From NCBI GenBank assembly GCA_020845755.1, contig JADLFE010000033.1:248001-312000 (forward strand): a stretch of DNA of 64,000 nucleotides. Reading direction: 5' to 3'. Shown here in pieces: positions 39,267 through 41,687 of the stretch. Within the stretch, counting starts at the first letter, position 1. Every line of letters starts with the position of its first letter. The notes beneath the pieces are model-generated. The model ran no database searches. It was not told the DNA's origin and was given only the letters and a program-made list of their open reading frames with translations. Source of the stretch: Phycisphaerales bacterium. GTDB taxonomy: Bacteria; Planctomycetota; Phycisphaerae; Phycisphaerales; UBA1924. Both the position numbers and the translations under genes were made by a program.

Positions 39267-39808
39267 GTCTCCGCCCCCCAGTGCGATGTGGCATGTCAAG
39301 ATGGCTAGAAACCAGCACAGACAACCAGACATTTGGGCAGAAGACAGGAGTGATGGTGCGGCTTATGCCACAGAGACCGCGCATATTCGCGAGGTGTCCC
39401 GCCGGTTACCCCAGGCCAGATATAGGTTTCGAGCAAGAAACCGATCGAAAACAGGACTTTCACGTCTTCAAATTTATTTCGTGCGGGCAGGTAATTGGCG
39501 CTTTGAGCCAGGGGCTTTCACCGTGATCCGTCTTCTCGCCGGAGCGACATGCGCGTCACCGGAGCCTCAAACCCTCTTCTGTGCGAAGGTTGTGTCAGAA
39601 ATACGAGAACCACCGAAAGACCCCCTTGCGGCGGCAACCGCCCTCGGGTAATCTTGGGGTGTCGCGGTTCTCTTCTCCTGTGGTGTAGACCGCGACGAAG
39701 GGGAGAGTCCTTCACATCCCGGCGGCGATAGGACGCGCCATCCACGATCTCGTGGCGTGGTGGCGGTGTCTGAACTCGTCCAGGGCTTGAAGACCACAGG
39801 AGGGGGAA
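39267..39808. other. 542-base gene-free region upstream of a dockerin protein
   Basis: Divergent intergenic region. The left half (39300-39520) is unusually AT-rich for this genome and probably holds promoters for both sides. The right half contains a perfect 8-bp inverted repeat, gtcgcggt (39661-39668) and accgcgac (39689-39696), within the likely leader of the gene at 39809. No reading frame looks coding. Confidence 0.45.
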
Positions 39809-40702
39809 ATGTCAATTCGTCGTTTGGTCGCGCTCGCTTCGGCATGCGCCTGCGGATTGGTCGTCGCCGGCGTGCCGCCCACCATCGGCGGCTTCAACAC
39901 CACCCGCGGCGGAGCGATGAGCCTCGCGGGCGGCTCGGACGTGATGCTCCTTTCGTCGAGCATCCAGATCGCGTTTCCGTCCTGCACCGTCACCGGGACT
40001 TCGACGCTGACCGATTCGTATCTCGCGGGTGTCGACGTCCTGTTCCTCGCGTCTGGCAAGAAGCACGCGGGCGCCAGCAACATGATCACGGCGCTTTCCG
40101 CGGCGGAACGCGGTGCGCTGCTCAACTACGTCGCGAGCGGCAAGGGTGTGATCGTCGCGATAGACAACTCCGATTTCCAGGCCGCCAACCAGAGCATCCT
40201 GAGCGCGTTCGCGCTGACCTCTTCGGGCAAACTCGGGGCGTCGGAGCCGATGTCGATGGGCGATACCGCCGAGTCGGCGATCACCAACGGTCGTTTCGGC
40301 ACGGTCACCAGTGTTCCCACCTATTGGCCGGGGGTGATCGACAACGCGTCGAGCGATCGCGTGGTCGGGCGTTTCAACAGCGGCGCGACGGGTCTGGCTG
40401 TCATCCCGCGCGGCGCGATCAGCGCCGGGAGCGGGCCGGTCGTGATCGTCACCGACATGTCCATGCTGACCAACACATACCTCGCCAACAACGCGATGAC
40501 CCTGATGCTCAACACGATCGTCGACATGGCCGGGTACTGCACGTCGGACTTCGATCTCGACGGATTTGTCAACGCTCTGGACTACGACGCCTTCGCCTCC
40601 GCCTTTGAGAACGGGGACTTTGAGGCGGATGTCAACCTGGACGGCTTCGTCAACGGGTTGGATTACGACACCTTCGCTTCCGCTTTCGAGGTCGGGTGCT
40701 GA
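39809..40702 (+). CDS. Secreted protein with GC-type dockerin module
   Basis: A 297-aa exported protein (signal peptide 1-20, 'SIRRLVALASACACGLVVAG'). The body has a Rossmann/glutaminase-like pattern: 'YLAGVDVLFLASGKKHAGA', 'AAERGALLNYVASGKGVIVA', 'ERGALL...GKG', 'GPVVIVTDMSMLTN', as in ThuA-like or class I amidotransferase-fold proteins; this is a fold-level guess. Two EF-hand-like repeats ('DFDLDGFVNALDYDAFASAF', 'DVNLDGFVNGLDYDTFASAF') and terminal Gly-Cys end it. GGAGGGGGAA precedes the ATG. Confidence 0.75.
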   Translation: MSIRRLVALASACACGLVVAGVPPTIGGFNTTRGGAMSLAGGSDVMLLSSSIQIAFPSCTVTGTSTLTDSYLAGVDVLFLASGKKHAGASNMITALSAAERGALLNYVASGKGVIVAIDNSDFQAANQSILSAFALTSSGKLGASEPMSMGDTAESAITNGRFGTVTSVPTYWPGVIDNASSDRVVGRFNSGATGLAVIPRGAISAGSGPVVIVTDMSMLTNTYLANNAMTLMLNTIVDMAGYCTSDFDLDGFVNALDYDAFASAFENGDFEADVNLDGFVNGLDYDTFASAFEVGC

Positions 40703-40708
40703 GAAACA

Positions 40709-40728
40709 CGTGCCGGGCACCTGGCACG
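40709..40728 (+). repeat. Short hairpin after the dockerin gene
   Basis: cgtgcc (40709-40714) pairs with ggcacg (40723-40728), six bases after the stop. No U run follows, so read-through into the structured region downstream is likely. Confidence 0.35.
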
Positions 40729-40799
40729 AGGATTGATCAGGTTTGGAGCAGACGGAGTTTGAAAGGAGTTGGAACGATCAGGAGTGAATGAGCAAGGAA

Positions 40800-41058
40800 A
40801 GAGGGGGGACGATCGGACGACTTTCGGTCTTCGTTCTCCCGAAGTCTCGCGGGCTCGTTGATTTCTGATCCTTGAGTTTGGGGTTGTGCGGGGCCCTGGG
40901 GAGGGTCGACCCCGCTGGAGTGTCCGGTCGCACGCACGAATTCTCGCCGGGCGTGCGGCAGGGCCAGCATGAAAGCTCGGCCGACCGGACGAGCGTTGGG
41001 AGAGAGATCCCGGTCTTCCGGAACCCTCGGGCTCACCCCCGGGGGTTCCGTTTTTTTT
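40800..41058 (+). ncRNA. Candidate structured non-coding RNA with intrinsic terminator
   Basis: Gene-free stretch with dense self-complementarity. Hairpin 1: 40819-40827 with 40839-40846 (one bulge). Hairpin 2: gcgggg 40888-40893 with ccccgc 40910-40915. Three-way junction: stem gtccggtcg 40922-40930 with cgaccggac 40982-40990; inner stems cacgc 40931-40935 with gcgtg 40951-40955, and ggccagc 40962-40968 with gctcggcc 40975-40982. A terminator ends it. It could be an independent small RNA or a structured 3' region of the dockerin gene. It does not match RNase P, tmRNA, SRP or 6S patterns that I can recall. No clear promoter was found. Confidence 0.45.
41020..41058 (+). terminator. Strong intrinsic terminator
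   Basis: ggaaccctcggg (41020-41031) pairs with cccgggggttcc (41038-41049) over 12 bp with one G-U pair, then one G and T8 at 41051-41058. This is the strongest plus-strand terminator in the window, and it ends transcription that began in or before the structured region. Confidence 0.85.
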
Positions 41059-41105
41059 GGAGGGAGAGTTCTCCCTTACGCCGGATCGTGCGACATCCGC
41101 GGCTT

Positions 41106-41687
41106 CTACTTCGGCTCGTCCGGCACGCCCGAAAGACCCATCGCGCGGGCCGTAGCACGCAAGCGAGCGGCCATGACCAGCAGCGACGACGGGATGACGC
41201 GCACATCGCCCACGACGCTGATGAAGTTGACGTCGCCGCCCCAGCGAGGCACGAGGTGGACATGCAGGTGCTGCGGCACGCCCGCGCCGGCGGCCCTTCC
41301 CTGATTGAGCCCGACATTCACGCCTTGTGGATTCAGCGTGCGCTCGAGGATGTCCATCGCGATATCCACGAGCGTCCAGAGGGTGGCGCGCTGCGCGGGC
41401 GCGTAGTCGAGGAGGCGGCCGCGCGGGTCGCCGAGCGCGACGAGCAGGTGCCCGTTGGCGTAGGGGAAGCCGTTGAGGACGATCAGACCGCTTTCGTCGC
41501 GGACGATGACGTGGTTTGGTCCGTCCTGCGCGGGCGAGTTCCAGTAATCGAGGAGGAACGAGCCGCTGGAGGCGGTGGGCGGGCCGGCGGATTGTTCGCG
41601 AGCGTCGAGTGCTTCCAGGTATTCGAGCCGCCAGGGGGCGTGGAGCGCGGGCCGGCCTTCGCCGCGGGGTGGGTTGGTGTGGGCCAT
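41106..41687 (-). CDS. HIT family nucleotide hydrolase/transferase
   Basis: A 193-aa histidine-triad protein. The signature 'HLHVHLVPRW' (His140, His142, His144) is preceded by 'GVNVGLNQGRAAGAGVP'; the N-terminal 'NHVIVRDESGLIVLNGFPYA' resembles bacterial Ap4A phosphorylase-like/HIT proteins longer than the typical 110-aa HINT. The middle His carries the nucleotidyl intermediate. The substrate is a nucleoside phosphate conjugate, not specified by sequence. No ribosome site; TACCCT ends eight bases before the ATG at 41687. Confidence 0.9.
   Translation of the reverse strand: MAHTNPPRGEGRPALHAPWRLEYLEALDAREQSAGPPTASSGSFLLDYWNSPAQDGPNHVIVRDESGLIVLNGFPYANGHLLVALGDPRGRLLDYAPAQRATLWTLVDIAMDILERTLNPQGVNVGLNQGRAAGAGVPQHLHVHLVPRWGGDVNFISVVGDVRVIPSSLLVMAARLRATARAMGLSGVPDEPK

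Follow-up and report, generated by a model that had tools for sequence, protein, structure and literature searches.

A conserved non-coding block behind a dockerin-bearing gene in one Phycisphaerales genus, likely a 3' UTR and predicted to give rise to a processed small RNA

The window, by which we mean the whole 64,000-nucleotide stretch analysed here, comes from contig C33 of a Phycisphaerales assembly of 4.2 Mb that is 94.35% complete. Between a dockerin-bearing gene on the plus strand (39809-40702) and a convergent HIT-domain gene on the minus strand (41106-41687) lies a non-coding stretch (40703-41105), within which an alignment of four genomes delimits a conserved non-coding block on the plus strand (40866-41058), likely a 3' UTR together with a predicted processed small RNA. 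The sequence conservation of this block is far beyond chance. Judging from sequence, we propose with a probability of about 0.4 that it is the 3' end of the dockerin mRNA and that it may be cut free as a small RNA of ~185 nt that pairs with other mRNAs. The initial annotation had offered two options, a free unclassified ncRNA or a 3' regulatory tail of the dockerin gene, and the tail fits better, since the same gene lies upstream in 4/4 genomes while the next gene differs. Its view of a non-coding, unclassified RNA element is supported by strong conservation in the genus, by the lack of any Rfam family at gathering score and by the lack of a coding pattern.

The genus set comprised four genomes, namely the window's own (G000), G001, G002 and G003. 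Across their alignment the block has a mean column identity of 94%. Within the 184-nt core used for identity counts (40872-41055), 176/184 positions (0.957) match the window in G002 and again in G003, and 156/183 (0.852) in G001. The corresponding values for four-fold sites of the dockerin gene are 74/133 (0.556), 70/132 (0.530) and 52/106 (0.491) for G002, G003 and G001, respectively, and in each of the three relatives the block is more alike than its gene. The probability of so few core differences, with sites taken as independent, is below 1e-23 per pair at the four-fold rate, and 1e-11, 3e-11 and 4e-4 (G002, G003 and G001) at the gene's overall rate; these figures serve as a guide only, because neither sites nor genomes are independent. 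Both block and gene rank the genomes in the same way, with G002 and G003 as the closest pair and G001 farthest from the window.

The conservation has sharp edges, starting at about 40866 and stopping at the terminator. In steps of 20 nt, identity is 0.25-0.65 in the spacer (40780-40859), 0.75-1.00 over 40880-40959, 0.60-1.00 over 40960-41059 and 0.15-0.60 beyond the block (41060-41179). Presumed intergenic controls on the same contigs gave 0.17-0.47, with one value of 0.73 from a control that sits between genes themselves 91-92% identical; rates vary along the genome. Judged by this edge, resolved in 20-nt steps, the start originally placed at 40800 should shift to about 40866-40872. Conservation in relatives, the absence of which had been named beforehand as a ground for refutation, is present in all four genus genomes.

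The block ends in a predicted intrinsic terminator (41019-41058), recognised from sequence and folding energy and consisting of a 13-pair stem with one U.G and a 6-base loop (41019-41050), followed by T8 (41051-41058). A strong stem followed by T8 had been described before, albeit with 12 pairs rather than 13. The terminator folds well beyond expectation (z -3.5; 0/200 shuffles as good), and a terminator-like hairpin is found in 4/4 genomes, the T run being shorter or interrupted in the relatives. By folding energy, this element alone clearly exceeds chance. The whole of 40800-41058 has a z of -1.9 in one calculation and -2.2 in another; with the terminator removed (40800-41016) the value is -0.45 and 54/200 shuffles fold as well. 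The region of the first hairpin (40809-40850) gives z +0.8, and the body of the block in the window (40872-41018) gives -0.64, with 53/200 shuffles as good and 42/300 in a second run. Had folding energy been the sole evidence, the finding would not have been warranted.

The RNAalifold consensus of the four sequences, all elements of which lie on the plus strand, is made up of arm I, arm II, a closing helix, a 3' hairpin and the terminator; of its 240 cells, 97.5% can pair. Arm I (40880-40913) is a hairpin of 12 pairs with 1/48 cells unpaired, and the mean pair probabilities of its two parts are 0.78/0.83 in the window, 0.97/0.91 in G002, 0.96/0.90 in G003 and 0.19/0.39 in G001. The possible closing helix (40871-40879 with 40973-40981; 91.7% of cells paired) reaches 0.00, 0.98, 0.63 and 0.30 in the same order of genomes. 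The 3' hairpin (40983-41015), in which GACCGG and CCGGUC would enclose the purine-rich loop GUUGGGAGAGAG (40995-41006), reaches 0.00, 1.00, 0.79 and 0.33, with 6/6 pairs possible in the four orthologues.

Arm II (40914-40968), a long hairpin with 2/76 cells unpaired, is the best-supported part of this predicted fold. Taken alone, it is more stable than its shuffles in all four genomes (z -2.0, -3.0, -2.8 and -3.6), and it contains one compensatory pair (C-G to U-A) and three pairs in which a one-sided change keeps the pairing. In the full-length ensemble its top part has a probability of 0.88-1.00 in G001-G003, as against 0.04-0.33 for its parts in the window, where the base and middle of arm II, the closing helix and the 3' hairpin come to 0.00-0.05. 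No single predicted optimum is common to the four sequences, and arm I is poorly formed in G001. Covariation over the consensus fold of these four sequences is weak, amounting to one compensatory pair, a count reached in 117/500 shuffles, and 18/200 column shuffles attain the body's RNAalifold energy. Given this evidence for and against arm II, our claim is therefore one of conserved sequence with a predicted common fold that is likely but unproven.

Arm II competes with the closing stem of a three-way junction put forward in the initial annotation. Complementary arms are present at all the places that it named, and the 9-bp pairing 40922-40930/40982-40990 is perfect in the window. As a conserved structure, the junction is contradicted by G001-G003. 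It is the window's optimum by 1.4 kcal/mol, with a pair probability of 0.82, but the closing and third stems have a probability of 0.00 in the three relatives, and forcing four of the nine closing pairs costs 9.7 (G002), 5.1 (G003) and 10.7 (G001) kcal/mol. The closing stem could form 9/9 pairs in G002 and G003 and 7/9 in G001; for the third stem the counts are 6/7, 6/7 and 4/7. The isolated junction (40918-40995) has a z of -2.3, and its reverse complement one of -3.1. When the window was given the relatives' base at 40963 the preference for the junction was lost, whereas G002 given the window's base at that position did not switch to the junction. That base is therefore necessary in the window, but not sufficient. 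The hairpin proposed at 40819-40846 likewise has complementary arms but lacks conservation, with an identity of 0.35-0.65 in those steps.

Searches against known families gave no assignment. Rfam returned no match at gathering score in the whole window; with E up to 10, ten matches were listed, all far below gathering score (best 24.2 versus 45 bits), and 5/10 lie on the other strand. The best of these sub-threshold families, dauA, RAGATH-5 and rnk_pseudo, resemble the block only in having GC-rich hairpins. A tRNA/tmRNA search found none in the window. A coding reading was rejected, as in G001 each of the six frames over alignment columns 1-131 contains 2-4 synonymous against 10-11 non-synonymous changed codons. 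G002 and G003 have 2-5 changed codons, too few to judge coding, and three reverse-strand frames are open there; single-base indels come after these columns.

In a DNA search of 61 genomes, strong matches occurred solely in the four genus genomes, and those elsewhere were weak (E 0.001-0.1) and spanned at most about 36 bases. A covariance model (R1) built from the four sequences was run on 163 family genomes and on a draw of 400 genomes from the order, with strict filters and at most the best 6-16 candidates per genome scored. Among the matches listed, strong ones are confined to the four genus genomes, a fragment in G003 included, and no convincing homologue appears in the 159 other family genomes or the 400 order genomes. 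The depth of the family is therefore one genus and four sequences. Counting the genus four in each case, matches at E<=1 occur in at least 33/150 family genomes, at E<=1e-4 in at least 7/163 family genomes and at E<=1e-5 in at least 5/400 order genomes. Three other family genomes (G015, G174 and G180) pass 1e-4, but what their alignments have in common with the block is the terminator and hardly anything more. Of the weak matches, ten loci (L043-L048, L126 and L127, together with a single locus in each of G000 and G001) were inspected and rejected, having little in common beyond the terminator hairpin and a T-rich tail; these ten are explained by the style of the terminator (CTCGGG...CCCCGGGGG, tail TGTG-TTTTTGG), which other genera of the family also use and which reappears elsewhere in the genus genomes. 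An exact-motif scan of the GTDB collection, in which the window's genome may not have been included, found three stretches in two genus genomes (Phycisphaerales MAGs JABWBC01 and JADYYE01), and viral contigs contained no exact match to the motif.

The data suggest a model in which the block would be transcribed along with the dockerin gene as the 3' end of its mRNA, with the terminator as the predicted end of transcription. A cut near 40870, for which an RNase E/G homologue encoded in the genome is a possible enzyme, would release an RNA of ~185 nt, which the hairpins and terminator would protect. Targets might be bound through GUGCGG (40886-40891), GGGG (40898-40901) or AGUG (40919-40922), all of which are invariant and predicted to be mostly unpaired, or alternatively through the purine-rich loop at 40995-41006. 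Hfq (PF17209) gave 0 matches in the 94.35% complete assembly, in a search with control matches in 5/14 genomes, and pairing would therefore proceed without Hfq or with another chaperone. Two properties of 3'-UTR small RNAs are present: in 4/4 genomes the block stands downstream of a coding gene, shares its strand and has a terminator at its end, and the conserved sequence takes in more than the terminator. A bolder version, to which we give about one chance in four, is that this is a genus-specific, Hfq-free regulatory RNA of Phycisphaerales, cut from the 3' end of the dockerin mRNA, and that its sequence is under tighter constraint than the accompanying protein gene, so that the RNA may outweigh the protein as the product of the gene.

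An alternative is that the block never leaves the dockerin mRNA and acts purely in cis, as a 3' UTR that sets stability and termination and yields no free small RNA. We consider this somewhat unlikely, though it ranks not far behind a released small RNA. In its favour, 4/4 genomes have the block behind the gene with a terminator-like hairpin at its end, the stable arm II hairpin stands ahead of the terminator, and the 5' region of the gene is also conserved in the three genomes compared. However, a stability hairpin alone would not require 96% identity that includes unpaired bases. The invariant, mostly unpaired GUGCGG, GGGG and AGUG suggest sequence-specific contacts, although a protein binding to the mRNA would be another possible explanation.

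The sharp 5' edge of conservation at about 40866 and the presence of a terminator are likewise consistent with a separate small RNA gene that would be driven by its own promoter immediately before 40866 and would stand behind the dockerin gene through history alone. In addition, the decamer GAAAGGAGTT (40761-40770, plus strand), which is invariant in the four genomes within an otherwise diverged spacer, could belong to a distant promoter. Yet 40780-40859 carries no conserved footprint (identity 0.25-0.65), and a scan of 39300-41300 with a sigma-70-like consensus found no promoter before the block. It found none anywhere else in that interval either, the region before the dockerin gene included, so the scan does not show that the block lacks a promoter. 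The dockerin gene also stays alongside in 4/4 genomes although the other flank has been rearranged, and we regard an independent gene as improbable.

This rearrangement is evident from the neighbouring genes. The dockerin-bearing gene precedes the block in 4/4 genomes, its start being cut by the contig end in G001, and the gene that follows differs in all four: a HIT gene in the window, a cyclophilin gene in G002, a gene of the carboxymuconolactone decarboxylase family in G003 and, in G001, a short ORF with no Pfam match and, by eye, a dockerin-like end, then a relative of a gene for a 361-aa protein. Collinearity of the window with the three relatives ends at 41061-41062, directly after the terminator. 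A partial copy is present at another junction in G003 (L035:1501-1602), where 102 bases corresponding to the right half of the block only, 82% identical to the window, directly follow a small zinc-ribbon gene (FmdB-like by eye) and precede the gene for the 361-aa protein (no Pfam match). Its terminator stem is degraded, and by hand count the fragment agrees with the window at 30/32 bases of the part running from GCTCGGCC to the purine-rich stretch. The G001 gene behind the full copy is 73% identical to the 361-aa protein and another G001 gene 75%; behind the zinc-ribbon gene in G000, G001 and G002 no such sequence was found. The simplest reading of the G003 fragment is a relic of rearrangement.

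The common breakpoint, together with a partial copy and a full copy (G001) that are followed by related genes, might point to an element acting as DNA, such as a protein-binding or recombination site, rather than as RNA. We judge this very unlikely. Despite its changes, arm II retains 74/76 pair cells, the terminator points the same way as the gene, and breakpoints that fall after the terminator disrupt nothing and require no special site. Moreover, beyond the copies described, DNA searches of the four genomes turned up only matches of up to 37 bases, and the terminator is all that is shared by the two weak model matches found in G000 and G001. Least probable of all is that transfer or gene conversion homogenised the block, making its likeness no sign of selection: the block is indeed much more alike than the adjoining sequence, but the same 190 bases would have to be replaced with the same edges and in the same place between lineages whose dockerin gene is 75-78% identical to that of the window, and block and gene put the genomes in the same order.

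A small RNA released from the dockerin mRNA, the reading that we favour, has its closest parallel in CpxQ, and also in SdhX, OppZ and s-SodF, which like the block are non-coding and run from a stop codon to an intrinsic terminator. CpxQ is described as more conserved than its parent gene, and s-SodF is tabulated in the same source as made by neither RNase E nor RNase III (PMC9438474). CpxQ needs Hfq, in contrast to the situation in the window's genome, which has no Hfq match, and unlike RNAs of this type the block is known here from the sequence of four genomes alone. Conserved intergenic small RNAs with their own promoter are similar to the block in size range and terminator, but the block shows no visible promoter footprint and is tied to one upstream gene. 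One review reports that, in the bacteria examined, the 3' UTRs of orthologous genes mostly lack conservation from one related species to another (PMC7821165); a 3' UTR that has changed less than the synonymous sites of its gene is therefore a good place to search for a functional RNA. Small RNAs have hardly been described in Planctomycetes, and the lineage of the block is one with no detected Hfq. In a survey based on Rfam, Proteobacteria have 345 distinct small RNAs and the entire PVC group 8 (PMC9029176). Among the matches listed, literature searches on Phycisphaerales small or noncoding RNA gave no title on small RNAs of this group, and searches of the planctomycete literature (dockerin, Hfq, small RNA, 3' UTR, transcriptome) gave none describing the block.

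The upstream gene would encode a product with a DUF4350-like region and a dockerin at its C-terminus, each recognised by a Pfam match below the curated cut-off, and its orthologue in G002 is 76% identical. A distant homologue in G078 (39% identity) lacks a comparable block over the 291 bases read around and behind its end. Within G000, the best 29 of 118 candidate matches to the dockerin protein are spread over many contigs, and among those listed every one other than the gene itself starts to align at residue 150 or later, within the C-terminal dockerin part. The leader of the gene (39643-39808, plus strand), compared in the window, G002 and G003 (the G001 contig ends inside the gene), is conserved to about the same degree as the 3' block, with an identity of 0.85-1.00 over 39643-39700 in 20-nt steps and complete identity of the three genomes over 39680-39739. 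This suggests, without proof, that the dockerin gene may be controlled at both ends. Pairing between leader and 3' block was no better than in shuffles in 3/3 genomes (reached by 119, 248 and 163 of 300). By eye, the leader contains GTCGCGGT/ACCGCGAC arms and CU-rich and GA-rich stretches that might form a pseudoknot, which the MFE structure does not show. In the spacer, the invariant decamer is Shine-Dalgarno-like, with no obvious conserved start codon behind it. Finally, short degenerate repeats stand directly before the block in G001 and G002 (loci L009 and L011), for example CTGTTTCGCTGTTTCGCTGATTCCCTGAT in G002.
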